From Balneolaceae bacterium (GTDB taxonomy: Bacteria > Bacteroidota > Rhodothermia > Balneolales > Balneolaceae): a stretch of 42,184 nucleotides of DNA. The notes below the pieces were generated by a model. The model was given only the letters and a program-made list of their open reading frames with translations. It searched no databases and had not been told where the DNA came from. Shown here piece after piece: positions 7,780 through 41,860 of this stretch. A program made the position numbers and the translations under genes. Location of the stretch: assembly GCA_009711805.1 (NCBI GenBank), contig VEMX01000020.1, positions 1-42,184 on the forward strand. The letters run 5' to 3'. Positions within the stretch are counted from its first letter, which is position 1. Each line of letters starts with the position of its first letter.

Positions 7780-8025
7780 ATGAAAACTATTGCCCAGCTC
7801 TCTTATATCCCCTTGTCGACAGAAGATCCAAGAGAAAAAGTACAAGAGCTGCTTGAACACCTCGCACAATATGACGTCAAGATTGAGGTAGGTTATATGT
7901 CTACAACCATTATTGGTCAACCTGAGGTTGTTTTTGAAGTAATAGAAGAGCTCTACAAAACAATGACACTGGAAACCAACAGATTCCGTTTCCACATTGA
8001 GCTGCTATCTCCTTTAAACGAGTAA
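7780..8025 (+). CDS. Thiamine-binding-like protein, MTH1187/YkoF family
   Basis: This 81-residue soluble protein has the alternating beta-alpha pattern of the MTH1187/YkoF-like (thiamine_BP) family: an opening strand IAQLSYIPLS, helix EKVQELLEHLAQY, strand KIEVGYMSTTIIGQ, helix EVVFEVIEELYKTM and strand RFRFHIELLS. Family members bind thiamine or related compounds as dimers of ferredoxin-like folds, and the physiological role is often unknown. It is slightly shorter than the usual ~95-100 residues. A T-rich stretch just after the stop (8030-8060) may aid termination. No thiamine transport or synthesis gene is next to it. Confidence 0.6.
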   Translation: MKTIAQLSYIPLSTEDPREKVQELLEHLAQYDVKIEVGYMSTTIIGQPEVVFEVIEELYKTMTLETNRFRFHIELLSPLNE

Positions 8026-8124
8026 AAACTTTTTTTTGGTTTTTTATTCCGTTTTTGAGTTTGATGCATCTGTTAGCTAAAAATGCCGGGACCTATACAT
8101 TCCTGTGGTGTAGTAGAAGCCTTG

Positions 8125-8132
8125 TATATTTG
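8125..8132 (+). promoter_or_regulatory. Candidate -7 element TATATTTG for the DUF4174 gene
   Basis: TATATTTG matches the Bacteroidota sigma-A -7 consensus TAnnTTTG exactly and lies 42 bp before the ATG at 8175. At the expected -33 position there is only a weak TTC. A similar TTGTATATTG word occurs at 31251-31260 ahead of etfB. Confidence 0.45.
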
Positions 8133-8174
8133 AGGTCCATGCACAAGGTATAGATCTTTATTCAATCATATATT

Positions 8175-8546
8175 ATGAATTCTTTTGATCTGGAAGACTT
8201 TAAGGGAACAAATAACGTACTCCTGGTTTCCTCTCCCCATAATTATGATTTTACCCTTTCGGCTCTTTATAAAGTTTTTGATAATAACCGGACCGATTTT
8301 AACCAGCGGGATATAAAAATATTCCACCTTACCGATCTCAATATTAAAAAGCCTTTTGGTGCACGTATTCCTGATTCATCTAAAGTTGACCTTATGGATT
8401 GTTTTGGTGTGCCTGAATCTGAATTTGTTATGATCCTGATTGGCAAAGACGGAATAGAAAAACTCAGAACCAACGATATTATTCAAGCTGATATACTTTT
8501 TGATCTCATCGATTCTATTCCACCCACTAAAGCTGTTAAGAAATAG
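8175..8546 (+). CDS. DUF4174 family protein (thioredoxin-like fold)
   Basis: The 123-residue protein matches the DUF4174 pattern. It has an opening strand NNVLLVSSPHNYDFTLSAL, a central strand IKIFHLTD, then EFVMILIGKDGIEKLRTNDII and a final helix ILFDLIDSIPPTK, where the GKDG-x-K-LR motif is characteristic. The fold is thioredoxin-like but has no CxxC, so no redox activity can be claimed. Function is unknown; members are often small secreted or cytosolic proteins. It is a single-gene unit with its own promoter candidate, convergent with the OPT transporter. Confidence 0.75.
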   Translation: MNSFDLEDFKGTNNVLLVSSPHNYDFTLSALYKVFDNNRTDFNQRDIKIFHLTDLNIKKPFGARIPDSSKVDLMDCFGVPESEFVMILIGKDGIEKLRTNDIIQADILFDLIDSIPPTKAVKK

Positions 8547-8661
8547 CAATACCTGCTACAGTTAACAAAACAAGTTATTTCTGATTCCCTCTGCATGTTA
8601 TACAAATAAACTGCATACAAGGTGTATGCCTATTGAACATGCAGGTTAATCAAGCTTCAGT

Positions 8662-10707
8662 CTACACTTTCTTTTTAATGGCTACGCGATACAACCAAAC
8701 CATAAAGCAGATAGCTGCCAATACGCCAAGTGTATCCGTGAGCCAGCCATATCCTTCCGGCATAATACGCAAGGAGTCCGTGCTTTCAGTAATTGCGAAA
8801 GGAATCGCCAGTATAATACCGATTAACGCTTCGCCCGTAATTAAGCCAGATGAAAATAAAAGTCCCCGCCGTTCAGCTTCTTCTGTTGCTTCAGTTTCAT
8901 CCTCGCCGTTCAGCCCGGCTCTTTTCCTAACTACCCTTGAGGCTCCCCAGGCAATCATACCTCCCAGAAAAATTGGTACCGATAACTCCAAAGGCAGGTA
9001 AATTCCAACAGCAACTGCTAATACAGGAGCCCTGAATTCTGTACCCCTGGCTTTTAATATCTGGTCTAATATGATAATTGCTACTGCCACAATCCCACCT
9101 ATGATAATCATGGCCCATTCCAGGTTTTGGGCAAACACTCCTTCAGCCACCGACTGCATCAACGTGGCCTGTGGTGCTGTAAGCATCTCTTCGGGATTCA
9201 TCCCTTCTCTTGGGAACACCCCTCCCAATCCATAGGCATTAAACAACAGGCTTAAAATTGGTGCAATTACTAATGCAGCGGCCACAACACCAACAATCTG
9301 CATAATCTGTTGTTTATAGGGAGTAGCACCTACCAGTTGTCCGGCCTTTAAATCTTGTAAGTTATCCCCTGCAAGTGCAGCGGCACAAGCTACCATAGCT
9401 CCAATAATAACAGCAGCGGCAGCCGCTGAAGTAGCCTTACTCATATCAGTGGTAAAATCAACTTGCGAACCCAGTATGGCCAGCAAGCACAGAGACGCTG
9501 CAAGTATAGTTGCAATGGTTACACCCGATATAGGATTATTGGAAGATCCAACCAAACCTGCCATATAACCAGCTACTGAGGAAAACAAAAAACCGGCAAA
9601 CAGTGAAAACACCACCCCAAAAATCATGGCTCCCCAATAAGCGCCACTGCTAACACTCAGGTGATCTACATCAATCACATAAATAAATACAAAGAAGATA
9701 GGCAGGGCCAGCCCTGCGATCCCCCACATTACCAGGTTGATCGGAGTATCCAACTCGGTTCGGGGAACCAATCCCGCTCCGTTACTTTTAAGTTCTTTAA
9801 CGGCAGCCATAGATGATTTCACCCCATCAACCAGCGGCTTGGCTAAGGATACCAAGGCCCATACACCGCCAACAACCATAGCGCCTACCCCCAGGTAACG
9901 AATCTTTGCACTCCAGATGGAGAGGGCTGCATCATAGCCTTCGGCGGAACCCACAATAGAAGCTATCTCACCGGCATCGGCCAGAGCCATATAAATAGGT
10001 ATTCCAAACAGCCAGGAAATCAAACCGCCGGCAAAAATAAGAATAGCAATATTAAGTCCGACAATGTATCCCACTGCCAGCAGGGCAACCGACAAATCCG
10101 TTCCAAATCCAAAAATAGATTTCCCAGCTTTTACTGAACCTCCTACTGAGCCGGCAAAAATCTTTAATCCTGTTTGACTCAGTTTAAAAAAAGCCGCAGC
10201 CACACCAGCCTGTATAATCATTTTAATACCTGCACCTCCTTCAGTACCGGCTTTCAGCACCTCACCGGTAGCCACACCCTCTGGGAATTGCAGATCGCTT
10301 TCAACAATAAGAGCCCTGCGTAACGGTATGGTAAATAAGACTCCCAATATCCCGCCAAACATGGCTATAGCTGCTGTTTGCATAAAGGGGAAATCCATCC
10401 AATACTTAAGTAAAATGAGCGCCGGCAATGTAAATATAACCCCCGCCGCTAAAGACTCTCCCGCCGATGCAGCCGTCTGCACGATGTTATTTTCCAGTAT
10501 ATTCGACTCTTTAAACAACCGCAGCACGGCCATCGAAATAACAGCAGCTGGAATAGATGCTGAGACAGTCATTCCTACTTTAAGTCCCAAATAGGCATTT
10601 GCCCCAGCTAATATAGCAGACAGTAAAAAGCCCAGGATAACAGCTTTTATAGTAATTTGAGGGAGATCATCTTCAGGAGAGATATACGGTTTGAAACTTT
10701 TGTTACT
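8662..10707 (-). CDS. OPT-family oligopeptide transporter
   Basis: This very hydrophobic protein of about 681 residues has some 14-16 membrane helices. The opening ITIKAVILGFLLSAILAGANAYLGLKVGMTVSASIPAAVISMAVLR and later NNIVQTAASAGESLAAGVIFTLPALI are strongly conserved in the bacterial OPT branch. OPT proteins take up peptides or metal chelates with protons; the bacterial substrates are largely unknown. I start it at the Met preceding SNKSFKPYISPEDD because the upstream in-frame Met adds a non-family N-terminus. It is 230 bp downstream of cysN on the same strand, probably a separate unit. Confidence 0.9.
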   Translation of the reverse strand, partial: SNKSFKPYISPEDDLPQITIKAVILGFLLSAILAGANAYLGLKVGMTVSASIPAAVISMAVLRLFKESNILENNIVQTAASAGESLAAGVIFTLPALILLKYWMDFPFMQTAAIAMFGGILGVLFTIPLRRALIVESDLQFPEGVATGEVLKAGTEGGAGIKMIIQAGVAAAFFKLSQTGLKIFAGSVGGSVKAGKSIFGFGTDLSVALLAVGYIVGLNIAILIFAGGLISWLFGIPIYMALADAGEIASIVGSAEGYDAALSIWSAKIRYLGVGAMVVGGVWALVSLAKPLVDGVKSSMAAVKELKSNGAGLVPRTELDTPINLVMWGIAGLALPIFFVFIYVIDVDHLSVSSGAYWGAMIFGVVFSLFAGFLFSSVAGYMAGLVGSSNNPISGVTIATILAASLCLLAILGSQVDFTTDMSKATSAAAAAVIIGAMVACAAALAGDNLQDLKAGQLVGATPYKQQIMQIVGVVAAALVIAPILSLLFNAYGLGGVFPREGMNPEEMLTAPQATLMQSVAEGVFAQNLEWAMIIIGGIVAVAIIILDQILKARGTEFRAPVLAVAVGIYLPLELSVPIFLGGMIAWGASRVVRKRAGLNGEDETEATEEAERRGLLFSSGLITGEALIGIILAIPFAITESTDSLRIMPEGYGWLTDTLGVLAAICFMVWLYRVAIKKKV

Positions 10708-10937: not shown

Positions 10938-12224
10938 CTAAATAATCATCCCGGCACCAACGGTGTTGTTGGTAAATTCATCCACGATGATAAGACTGCC
11001 CGTTGAGCGGTTTCGGGAATAGCTATCGTAGAATAGCGGCTCGGTAGTTCTGATGCGGATACGGCCAATATCATTGAGGCCAATACTCAAGTCACCTTCA
11101 ACGCGATGGAGGGTATTGATGTCTACTTTATACTTCACTTCCTTCACTATACAGCGGGCCTGTTTGGTAGTATGACGAATGGTGTATTTGCCTCTCGGGT
11201 GAAGCTCCTCTTTATTTAGCCAGCATACCATCAGATCTATATCCTGCCCTACTTTAGGCTGATTATCCGGTTTGGCAAGCATATCTCCCCGGCTTATATC
11301 AATATCATCCTCAAGAGTCATCGACACCGACATGGGTGCAAAAGCCTCATCCACTTCCTCGTTATGGTTATGGATACTTTTAATTTTGCTGGTAAAACCT
11401 GAAGGCAGGGCTATGATTTTATCCCCCGGCTTGAATACTCCACCTTCTACTCTTCCGGCATATCCCCTGTAATCGTGAAATTCATTGGATTGAGGCCGGA
11501 CCACCCACTGAACGGGGTAACGGCAGTCTACATGATTATGATCACTGCCTACTTGTACATTTTCGAGTGTGTATAGCAGCGTGGAACCTCCATACCAATC
11601 CATCTTATCGGATTTCTCCACTACATTATCTCCATACAAAGCACTGATGGGTATGTAATGGATATCCGGCACATTCAGTTTGGAGGAGAACTCTTTATAC
11701 TGGCTTACCACATCTTTGTATACCTCTTCGGAATAATCTACCAGATCCATTTTATTCACACAAAGCACAATATGTTTGATGCCCAGCAACGAAGCTATAA
11801 ACGAGTGACGGCAGGTTTGTTCAATGACGCCAGCTCTTGCATCTACCAAAATAACCGCCAGGTTAGCTGTTGAAGCACCAGTAACCATATTACGGGTATA
11901 CTGGATGTGCCCGGGAGTATCGGCAATGATAAACTTTCGGCTTGGCGTAGAAAAATAGCGGTAGGCAACATCAATAGTGATACCCTGCTCTCTTTCAGCA
12001 GAAAGCCCATCGGTTAGTAAGGCGAGATTGGTATAATCATCTCCCTTCTTTTTGCTGGATTCTTCGATGGCTTCCATCTGATCATCAAAAATGGATTTTG
12101 AATCATATAAAAGTCTTCCGATCAATGTACTTTTGCCATCATCTACACTGCCAGCCGTGGTGAACCTCAATAGGTCCATATTCAGATATGCGTTTTCGGC
12201 TTTATTCTTATTTGTGCTTTGCAT
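10938..12224 (-). CDS. cysN: Sulfate adenylyltransferase GTPase subunit CysN
   Basis: CysN is the GTPase that drives CysD-catalysed formation of APS from ATP and sulfate. The 428-residue protein has an EF-Tu-like G domain with Walker A GSVDDGKS (25-32), DTPGH (102-106) and NKMD (157-160), followed by two beta-barrel domains. It ends without a fused APS kinase, in line with a separate cysC in this operon. Normally cysN follows cysD by a few bases. Here 533 bp separate them, filled by a four-helix-bundle gene with inverted repeats, so co-expression of the two subunits may be altered. Confidence 0.96.
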   Translation of the reverse strand: MQSTNKNKAENAYLNMDLLRFTTAGSVDDGKSTLIGRLLYDSKSIFDDQMEAIEESSKKKGDDYTNLALLTDGLSAEREQGITIDVAYRYFSTPSRKFIIADTPGHIQYTRNMVTGASTANLAVILVDARAGVIEQTCRHSFIASLLGIKHIVLCVNKMDLVDYSEEVYKDVVSQYKEFSSKLNVPDIHYIPISALYGDNVVEKSDKMDWYGGSTLLYTLENVQVGSDHNHVDCRYPVQWVVRPQSNEFHDYRGYAGRVEGGVFKPGDKIIALPSGFTSKIKSIHNHNEEVDEAFAPMSVSMTLEDDIDISRGDMLAKPDNQPKVGQDIDLMVCWLNKEELHPRGKYTIRHTTKQARCIVKEVKYKVDINTLHRVEGDLSIGLNDIGRIRIRTTEPLFYDSYSRNRSTGSLIIVDEFTNNTVGAGMII

Positions 12225-12262: not shown

Positions 12263-12749
12263 GTGGTTAGTTTTTTAGTGCTCAGTTTTTGGTGTTGAGT
12301 TTTGCGGTTTTTACTATTGAGGTTAATAACCGGACAAGTTCTTTACTTTGTTTGATTTCATCCTGAAACTGTAAATCCACCATTTTGCTTTCTCTGAGCA
12401 ATTCTAACCAATAGAGAGATTCGCGTGCTTCTTTTGATGAAATTGACATTTTGTGAATAAAATCCTTCTTGGATTCTGCCGCAGAAGCTTCCCGGATATT
12501 CGCTCCAACACTTGTCCCACTTCTGAGCAATTGTTTCGAAATAACAAATTCCTTTTGCTTAACCAGCTTTTTATATAAGGCAACTATACTTAGTGCAAAC
12601 TTAAAACTCTTTTCATAAACAGGGCCATTTTCTGTCATCTTATTCCCTTAATTTTGTTAATCCTCACTAATAAGATCCATATTCACAGCAATCCTTACAA
12701 AATTCATCCCAACTAAAAACTAAAAACTGAGCACTAAAAAACTACCCAC
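12263..12749. mobile_element. Inverted-repeat-bounded unit carrying a four-helix-bundle gene, inserted between cysD and cysN
   Basis: A 39-bp left repeat (12263-12301, containing GTTTTTTAGTGCTCAGTTTT) and a 39-bp right repeat (12711-12749) are inverted copies with 35 of 39 matches by hand. Between them is one gene, 12282-12638. The left repeat overlaps the gene's 3' end and encodes its last residues and stop. The arms are built of short words such as AACTAAAAACT. No transposase is present, so movement would need help in trans. No clear target duplication is seen. The unit interrupts an operon that is otherwise contiguous in most bacteria. Calling it mobile is inference. Confidence 0.65.
12282..12638 (-). 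CDS. Four-helix bundle protein (23S rRNA intervening-sequence/S23 family)
   Basis: The 118-residue protein shows the family pattern: helix 1 EKSFKFALSIVALYKKLV, the signature KQLLRSGTSVGANIREASAAESKKDFIHKMSISSKEARESLYWLELL and a last helix EIKQSKELVRLLTSIVKTAKL. The family includes proteins coded in intervening sequences of 23S rRNA genes and is related to the Avd accessory protein of diversity-generating retroelements. Its biochemical function is not established; a nucleic-acid role is suspected. Here no rRNA and no reverse transcriptase is nearby. The terminal residues LNTKN and the stop lie in the flanking inverted repeat. Confidence 0.9.
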   Translation of the reverse strand: MTENGPVYEKSFKFALSIVALYKKLVKQKEFVISKQLLRSGTSVGANIREASAAESKKDFIHKMSISSKEARESLYWLELLRESKMVDLQFQDEIKQSKELVRLLTSIVKTAKLNTKN

Positions 12750-12757
12750 TAATCACT

Positions 12758-13663
12758 CTAAAAATACCCCTGTTTCTTACGTTCTTCCATGGCCGCTTCA
12801 GAACGTTTGTCATCGGCACGCCCGCCCCGTTCTGTAATCCTTGCCGAGGCTACCTCCTGGATAATATCTTTCAGCGTTGAAGCTTCCGAAACCACAGCTC
12901 CCGTGCAGGTTACATCTCCAATGGTTCTAAAGCGGATGGTTTTCTCCACAATTTCCTCATGCTCAAAATTCTGAATAAAGCTTGATGATGCCAACAATGT
13001 ACCATCCCGCTCAAACACTTCCCGTTCATGTGAAAAGTACAATGATGGAATTTCAATTTCTTCTGAAGCTATATACTGCCATACATCCATTTCCGTCCAA
13101 TTACTGAGTGGAAACACGCGGAAGTGCTCACCATATTCTTTATTGGCATTGAACAGGTTCCAGAGTTCAGGACGCTGATTTTTCGGATCCCACTGCCCAA
13201 ACTCATCACGGTGCGAGAAAAACCGTTCTTTGGCCCGGGCTTTTTCCTCATCGCGCCGGGCGCCGCCAAAGGCGGCATCAAATTTATGTTCTTCCATAGC
13301 ATCCAGCAGTGTGGTAATTTGCAGGGAATTCCGGCTGGCTCGCGGACCTTTTTCTTCCTTCACCTTTCCGGCATCAATTGAATCCTGCACCTTAGATACA
13401 ATCATTTCTATACCCAGTTCCTTTGCCAGGTTATCACGAAACTCAATGGTTTCATCAAAATTATGTCCGGTATCTACGTGCAAAAAAGGAAATGGTATTT
13501 TACCCGGATAAAATGCTTTTTTGGCCAGATGTGCCATACAAATGGAATCCTTACCTCCGGAGAATAACAAAACGGGCTTCTCGAACTGAGCCGCCACCTC
13601 CCGCATAATTAAGATTGCTTCTGATTCCAGTTGCTGTATATGATTTAGTTTATAGGATCTCAT
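12758..13663 (-). CDS. cysD: Sulfate adenylyltransferase subunit CysD
   Basis: CysD is the adenylyl-transferring subunit of ATP sulfurylase and works as a complex with CysN. The 301-residue protein belongs to the PAPS-reductase-like N-type ATP-pyrophosphatase fold. The PP-loop SGGKDS is at 35-40, HVDTGHNFDET follows, and the C-terminus with ARITERGGRADDKRSEAAMEERKKQGYF is typical of CysD. Length is normal. It starts 9 bp after cysC. Its stop codon is only 8 bp from the right inverted repeat of the four-helix-bundle unit. Confidence 0.97.
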   Translation of the reverse strand: MRSYKLNHIQQLESEAILIMREVAAQFEKPVLLFSGGKDSICMAHLAKKAFYPGKIPFPFLHVDTGHNFDETIEFRDNLAKELGIEMIVSKVQDSIDAGKVKEEKGPRASRNSLQITTLLDAMEEHKFDAAFGGARRDEEKARAKERFFSHRDEFGQWDPKNQRPELWNLFNANKEYGEHFRVFPLSNWTEMDVWQYIASEEIEIPSLYFSHEREVFERDGTLLASSSFIQNFEHEEIVEKTIRFRTIGDVTCTGAVVSEASTLKDIIQEVASARITERGGRADDKRSEAAMEERKKQGYF

Positions 13664-34664: not shown

Positions 34665-35008
34665 ATGATCAAGTTAAACCATAAAGACCTAAATGTTTAT
34701 AAGAGTAGCATTGAACTTGTTACTGAAATTTACAGATTGACACAGATTTTCCCGAAAACAGAAACATTTGGGATAAGCAGCCAAATGAGAAGAGCATCAA
34801 TTTCTGTACCTCGAATATTGCGGAAGGTTCTTCTCCTTTTTCAAAGAAAGAACGAAAACGATTTTATGAAATAGCAAGATCGTCTCTTGTAGAACTTGAT
34901 ACACAAATAGAAACCTCGTTCAATTTGAAATATCTGAAAAGAACTGAAACTGAAAAAGTTGAAAACTTAGCCAATAAAACTTTTGCCATGTTATCTAACA
35001 TGATTTAA
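34665..35008 (+). pseudogene. Frameshifted four-helix bundle protein gene (23S IVS/S23 family)
   Basis: The first frame reads MIKLNHKDLNVYKSSIELVTEIYRLTQIFP...SSQMRRASISVP and then goes out of frame at about 34811. One base down, the next frame continues SNIAEGSSPFSKKERKRFYEIARSSLVELDTQIETSFNLKYL to the stop at 35006-35008. SVPSNIAEGS is the family signature, so one missing T near 34811 explains the break. Restored, it would be about 115 residues. It sits between the fixC-type gene and fixX, a place normally without a gene. Either the deletion is real decay or a sequencing error; the sequence alone cannot tell. Confidence 0.85.
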
Positions 35009-35034
35009 AAAAATTCACGTCTCACTAAATAACT

Positions 35035-36549: not shown

Positions 36550-36743
36550 GGATGGGGGGCAGGGACAACTCTTTCACCTTTCACTTTTGCCTTCTGCCTT
36601 TTCACATCCTGACTATTTTGCACATTTGTGATCTTTCTCCATGGGGATGTCGGGGCACGCGGTAAAGCTTCTTCCCCGAACAAATATTCTCACACTCAGG
36701 ATTACAGCTTTGATTGTTGTAGGGGTTAGGCTATATATTGGAG

Positions 36744-41542: not shown

Positions 41543-41860
41543 TCAAAACACATACCGCTCATCAAACTCTACTTCGTGCTCTTCCAAAAGAGCTATATAC
41601 TCTTCCCGGAATGAGACCTTCCGATGATGTTCCTCTTGATTCTTCACATATTCAATTAATCCATCTTTGGCATCTACTGAATAGGTAAATGCACCATATC
41701 CCCGTCCCCAACCATAGAAACCCTCAAACAGTTCTTGTTTTTTGATAAATATGCTGCTACTCACCTTCACATCCTTCATCAATGAAGACAGTGCTACCCC
41801 GGGATTTATTTCAGTGATGATATGAATATGATTGTCTACTCCGCATAGTGTTATTACCAC
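41543..41860 (-). pseudogene. IS200/IS605-type (Y1) transposase, 5'-truncated
   Basis: The remaining ~105 residues match the C-terminal two thirds of a Y1 HUH transposase. GVDNHIHI holds the His-x-His metal motif. SLMKDVKVSSSIFIKK and FYGWGRGYGAFTYSVDAKDGLIEYVKNQEEHHRKVSFREEYIALLEEHEVEFDERYVF follow, with the catalytic Tyr likely in the GAFTYS-IEYVKNQ region. About 45 N-terminal residues expected in the family are missing: upstream of 41860 only a few codons are open before a stop. An IS630-type transposase starts 52 bp further in the opposite direction, so that insertion probably cut the gene. Confidence 0.8.

Follow-up and report, generated by a model that had tools for sequence, protein, structure and literature searches.

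Mobile units of S23 genes and inverted heptamer arms in the operon gaps of Balneolaceae and other bacteria

Between cysD and cysN of a Balneolaceae bacterium we identified a compact unit, in which a single gene of the S23/IVP four-helix-bundle family is enclosed by two inverted arms made of seven-nucleotide words. Units of this kind move as a block with their arms to new operon gaps, usually directly behind a stop codon, and their mobility is well supported. Which words an arm contains depends on the S23 protein, with which they are inherited, and not on the site. Moreover, the window unit is not a one-off, as genomes from several bacterial phyla contain arm-bracketed S23 units at dispersed places. 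An S23 gene together with heptamers was known before from the intervening sequence (IVS) in the 23S rRNA of Coxiella (PMC4990558); the units described here lie in protein operons. We consider it probable that they are mobile elements of the IVS type which inhabit operon gaps; the heptamers may be recognized by the S23 ring.

The window, the whole stretch of 42,184 nucleotides that was analysed, holds a cysC-cysD-cysN run on the minus strand. The host gene upstream of the unit is cysD (12758..13663, minus strand; NCBIfam CysD) and the one downstream is cysN (10938..12224, minus strand; NCBIfam CysN). The gap between them spans 533 bp, from the end of the cysD stop at 12758 to the cysN start at 12224, and contains the two arms and one gene only, encoding an S23/IVP four-helix-bundle protein of 118 amino acids (12282..12638, minus strand). 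This protein belongs to the S23/IVP family according to both PF05635 (1.6e-26, 93 bits, curated cut-off 33.8) and TIGR02436 (1.1e-30, 106.1 bits, curated cut-off 24), and it has a solved relative of five chains, 2RLD (1e-29). Read in the sense of the S23 gene, the 5' arm, GTGGGTAGTTTTTTAGTGCTCAGTTTTTAGTTTTTAGTT, lies at 12711..12749 (minus strand), was found by a repeat search and supported by a shuffle test, and consists of words beginning with AG(T). The 3' arm lies at 12263..12301 (minus strand). The arms measure 39 nt each, are complementary at 35/39 positions (90%) and are separated by 409 nt; the S23 gene ends inside the left (3') arm, which holds its final codons and stop at 12282-12301. 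In relatives, the 5' arm occupies the same position in the gap. The best inverted match in the cysD-cysN gap scores 29; when this sequence is shuffled 1000 times with its dinucleotides preserved, the mean is 9.1 and the highest score 16.5 (0/1000 reach 29), which rules out a chance inverted repeat. A promoter-like element, TGTAAGGA-N15-ATCTTATTAG, is located at 12667..12699 (minus strand), between the 5' arm and the S23 start codon. The original prediction, made from the letters of this DNA, had described the two 39-bp arms around a single S23/IVS-type gene, the coding of the last residues and stop by the left arm, the 533-bp spacing and the word-like character of the arms, and all of this was borne out; the words proved to be heptamers (AGTTTTT AGTTTTT AGT). 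RNA folding, which it had put forward as a check, gave a fold of the gap that beats 100/100 shuffles, with an only moderate margin (z -2.45).

To place this unit among its relatives, we collected 100 S23 genes from Balneolaceae with 800 bp on each side; the family searches gave the best matches first, start codons were set by rule, and the compared loci share phylogeny. Inverted arms scoring at least 12 are present in 76/100 of these genes, compared with 3.8% of arm pairs taken from mismatched loci, and direct repeats between the two flanks occur in 11 of the same 100 loci. Over 120 bp on either side of the gene, self-identity at lag 7 exceeds expectation by 6.3% (before) and 6.4% (after; SE 0.7-0.8), with weaker signals at lags 8, 14 and 21; there is no lag-7 excess inside the S23 gene or in the flanks 360-480 bp away. 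As a control, ordinary ORFs 270-900 nt long were taken from the same DNA, and only 2/217 of them score at least 14, versus 25/48 S23 genes. An artefact of flank composition is excluded, since other lags, genes, far flanks and the 217 control genes show nothing. Outside Balneolaceae, 39 S23 loci of other Bacteroidota have a lag-7 excess of 7.8% in both flanks, and arms scoring at least 12 in 25/39. In a further set of loci from cyanobacteria, Verrucomicrobia, Planctomycetes, Beggiatoa and some Bacteroidota, arms scoring at least 14 were found in 23/26 with a wider search span, against 6% by chance; this set was reached via the TAACTGA pattern and is therefore biased to repeat-rich genomes. Clear arms are absent from 24-36% of S23 genes at the looser cut-off (Balneolaceae and the rest of the Bacteroidota). 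An S23-like gene of another subfamily lies in an operon without heptamer arms at about positions 8000-9000 of three loci (L170/L171/L169), with an internal deletion in one genome (G027), and may be domesticated.

The repeat unit of the arms is well defined: in 83 units with clear arms, a period of 7 fits far better than 5, 6, 8 or 9. The heptamer consensus in the S23 sense is AGTWWTN (A 0.84, G 0.73), C being rare in the 5' arm. Heptamers within one arm agree at 65%, while arm against arm the same 83 units agree at 89%, an upper figure because arms were picked for matching. Word variants of one arm are thus mirrored in the other, and the two arms did not arise by separate expansions of repeats. 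The most frequent run length is five heptamers for the 5' arm and five to six for the 3' arm. Both solved S23 relatives, 2RLD and 2GSC, have five chains; this coincidence fits one heptamer per subunit but does not prove it.

Arm vocabulary follows the protein. Across 3252 pairs of units whose neighbours are not homologous, the word cosine averages 0.04 below 45% protein identity, 0.24 at 60-70% and 0.77 above 70% (three pairs), whereas the far flanks of the same pairs are nearly flat (word cosine 0.21-0.23; p 5e-4; the loci share phylogeny). Members of one S23 clade carry TCAGAAT/TCAGGAG across several genera, and AGCTATC marks another clade. Additionally, arms stay complementary within a unit, differ between units and change within a lineage. 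In one S23 clade they can lie either inside or outside the promoter.

Several comparisons show that these units move. In relatives, the cysD-cysN gap is either short (4-165 bp) or S23-bearing, and most relatives have no gene in it. S23 genes inside this gap occur in 11 species of several genera and fall in several lineages: placed on the S23 tree, the gap as a label requires 7 changes, of which well supported branches force at least 5; the gap is therefore a repeated target. When filled, it mostly has an arm beginning within ~16 nt of the cysD stop; more generally, in 43/54 cases the beginning of the 5' arm lies from -10 to +19 bp relative to the stop codon upstream. At another location (site A), three of six species of one genus are filled and three are empty, one of the empty sites holding a heptamer array of a different vocabulary. 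At a further location (site 1), four species share one S23 gene, genome G147 has a different S23 gene with different words, and G123 has nothing. The site A unit of G003 has a copy in the rluD-corC gap of the same genome, with 84% identity over 469 bp and unrelated flanks; this gap is filled in G003 and G171 only and empty (21-59 bp) in five congeners. Homology between the two G003 copies begins ~35 nt outside the 5' arm, at the promoter-like element, so that the promoter outside the arms was copied too and the arms may not mark the precise ends of the unit. The nearest sister of the window unit (66% identity) has a VWA gene on one side and a glycerate-kinase-like gene on the other, and its orientation is reversed. 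Twin copies in G033 were rejected as a case of transposition, being an assembly overlap. No target duplication is visible at the filled and empty sites compared, where the insertions are all too old for one to be read. The original prediction had read gene plus arms as a mobile unit, which would fall if no empty site existed anywhere or if other copies of the family lacked inverted arms; empty sites exist and other copies carry such arms. Its core therefore stands, and the interpretation as a whole is partly supported: a non-autonomous nature, movement as RNA and a role of the arms as recognition ends are possibilities. What it had missed are the seven-nucleotide period, the arm vocabulary specific to S23 clades and the promoter.

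Movement could also take place at the DNA level, the unit being a non-autonomous transposon with the arms as terminal inverted repeats and the S23 gene as a passenger; a transposase acting in trans (e.g. Y1) would move the unit, either as DNA or as a hairpin of one strand. Inverted arms, filled and empty sites and an intragenomic copy are what such an element would show, the copying of the promoter outside the 5' arm speaks for it as well, and a Y1 transposase fragment is present in the window. Nonetheless, we regard this as unlikely: between units the arms have no fixed sequence, and they change within a lineage yet remain complementary, unlike ends recognized by a transposase. Moreover, they vary with the S23 protein, and the target duplication expected of a transposon is not seen, the insertions being old.

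Heptamer arrays can exist or spread without an S23 gene, because many of them have none nearby. In 664 kb of Balneolaceae DNA this is the case for 25/47 arrays, and the strand bias of solo arrays is nil (9 vs 9). Contrary to expectation, TAACTGA arrays as a whole are not linked to S23: in a pattern scan of public loci, an S23 gene was nearby in 1/110. The S23-less arrays may be remnants, repeats in their own right, or binding sites for a protein supplied in trans. The window itself has a solo array, CTTTCACCTTTCACTTTTGCC, at 36570-36600 with no intact S23 gene nearby. In three loci (L172, L178, L179), arrays occupy several gaps of one operon and use in part the arm vocabulary of the resident S23, so that arrays may spread locally. 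Gene-less inverted heptamer hairpins with 75-144 bp between the arms, resembling MITE-like derivatives, were observed at L346 2130-2290, L302 4476-4672 and L348 1608-1800. In Microcystis (L333 527-1159), a TAACTGA inverted pair surrounds a 177-aa non-S23 ORF, and arms may bracket other genes too.

These arrays could accordingly be independent intergenic repeats, in which S23 cassettes land or through which they recombine, the arms being a by-product. The absence of S23 near more than half of the Balneolaceae arrays and nearly all TAACTGA arrays of the pattern scan would follow naturally, as would the several occupied gaps of one operon, the short gene-less hairpins and the array of different vocabulary at an empty site A. 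We find this improbable, since arm vocabulary tracks S23 protein similarity at unrelated sites, arm matches arm much better than heptamer matches heptamer within an arm, and 22/47 arrays lie within 250 bp of an S23 gene, in a part that makes up ~7% of the DNA. Finally, it is very improbable that S23 regulates the cys operon as a resident protein, with its ring binding heptamers of the message (like TRAP) and its gene inherited with cysDN: its position in the operon in 11 species of several genera and the pairing of a ring protein with repeated AG words would suit this role, but the cysDN copies belong to several separate S23 lineages, most relatives have the gap without the gene and the same family occurs in unrelated operons, also antisense, and a vertically inherited cys-specific gene is rejected by the empty sites and the S23 tree.

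Many units appear to bring their own promoter. In 46/100 Balneolaceae units, GTAAGG and a TCTTAC-like box precede the start codon, and the distance between the two is conserved. In the genome of the window, the sole exact match to a stricter form of this pattern precedes ssb. It reads TGTAAGGA-N15-GTCTTAC (L381 1500-1530, on contig C16), is the same element as in the S23 units and is possibly a promoter of the ECF type. Because TGTAAGGA-N-TCTTAC also precedes ssb, we rejected it as a mobility signal, and the element is more likely a host promoter. Units with the element are freed from operon orientation: only 9/39 of them are co-directional with both neighbours, versus 40/58 units without the motif (Fisher p 1.1e-5). 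In the rest of the Bacteroidota, where the motif is absent, 32/38 units are co-directional. Lacking a promoter of its own, such a unit depends on the message of its host, as an intervening sequence would be expected to.

The window contains a second S23 gene, a frameshifted pseudogene (34695..35011, plus strand) within an etf-type operon, where it has a FixC-like ORF on one side and a FixX-like ORF on the other. No clear inverted arms are left around it, and it is another operon-gap insertion, now decaying. A toxin-like ORF with a PIN domain (PF01850; 35468-35848) adjoins the FixX-like gene, and a partial Y1/IS200-like transposase ORF (PF01797) is found at 41543-41860.

How would an IVS-type element of operon gaps work? 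The unit comprises a 5' array of ~5 degenerate heptamers, often a promoter of its own (in Balneolaceae), the S23/IVP gene and a reverse-complement 3' array. In the operon transcript the arms could pair into a long stem, which RNase III might cut as it does in rRNA IVSs, splitting the host message between two cistrons without damage. More speculatively, a pentameric S23 ring might bind the heptamer array with roughly one subunit per heptamer, in which case the words would be its recognition code. A broader idea, which we put forward tentatively, is that S23 proteins are the recognition subunits of widespread RNA-level mobile elements, each ring reading its own vocabulary and co-evolving with its arms; scattered four-helix-bundle genes would then be the elements themselves, rRNA IVSs the members that live in rRNA, and many intergenic heptamer repeats (TAACTGA and cyanobacterial types) what is left of such elements.

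Although Bacteroidota and cyanobacteria commonly carry S23/IVP genes, the open literature that we found gives no function for them; intergenic heptamer repeats have likewise been described without explanation so far. In the open-access literature searched, there was nothing on S23 units outside rRNA or on a link between S23 and heptamers beyond Coxiella. Three oddities so far seen as unrelated, namely rRNA IVSs, four-helix-bundle genes and intergenic seven-base repeats, are now linked. Operon gaps are a recurrent home of a mobile element, which bears on the annotation of operons and on their messages.

Among known systems, the accessory protein Avd of diversity-generating retroelements (DGRs) has a related four-helix-bundle pentamer fold; going by the ORF list of the window, we noticed no reverse transcriptase or template repeat in the cysD-cysN gap. 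MITEs and other transposons with terminal inverted repeats resemble our units in their short length, inverted ends and filled and empty sites. They differ in that the copies here share no terminal sequence (word cosine ~0.04 for unrelated units) and show no target duplication, the insertions being old. The intergenic TAACTGA heptamers of Beggiatoaceae, cyanobacteria and some Bacteroidetes have the same seven-nucleotide period and in part the same words, but were described as direct repeats, with no mention of S23 in the main text (PMC4679880). In our loci, S23 lies between TCAGTTA/TAACTGA arms in Calothrix, Plectonema and Anabaena; Microcystis has a close variant, the pair TCAGTAA/TCAGTTA.

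A close counterpart is the 23S rRNA IVS of Coxiella and Leptospira (PMC4990558). In the case of Coxiella, it comprises 428 nt with an S23p ORF, inverted repeats and 2-3 tandem GACAGAT heptamers before the S23p ATG, which its authors treated as a local feature; RNase III cleavage takes place where the first heptamer repeat begins, and the Xanthomonas S23p is a toroidal homopentamer (PMC4990558). The suggestion that Coxiella S23p is not made in vivo counts against the reading that we favour (PMC4990558). The window unit shares with this IVS an S23 ORF, a similar size (487 bp), terminal inverted repeats forming a stem around the ORF, and heptamers just upstream of the S23 start, here as period-7 arms. 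It differs in lying between cysD and cysN and not in a 23S rRNA helix, and the units described here have long heptamer arrays on both sides, often a promoter of their own, and many different copies per genome.
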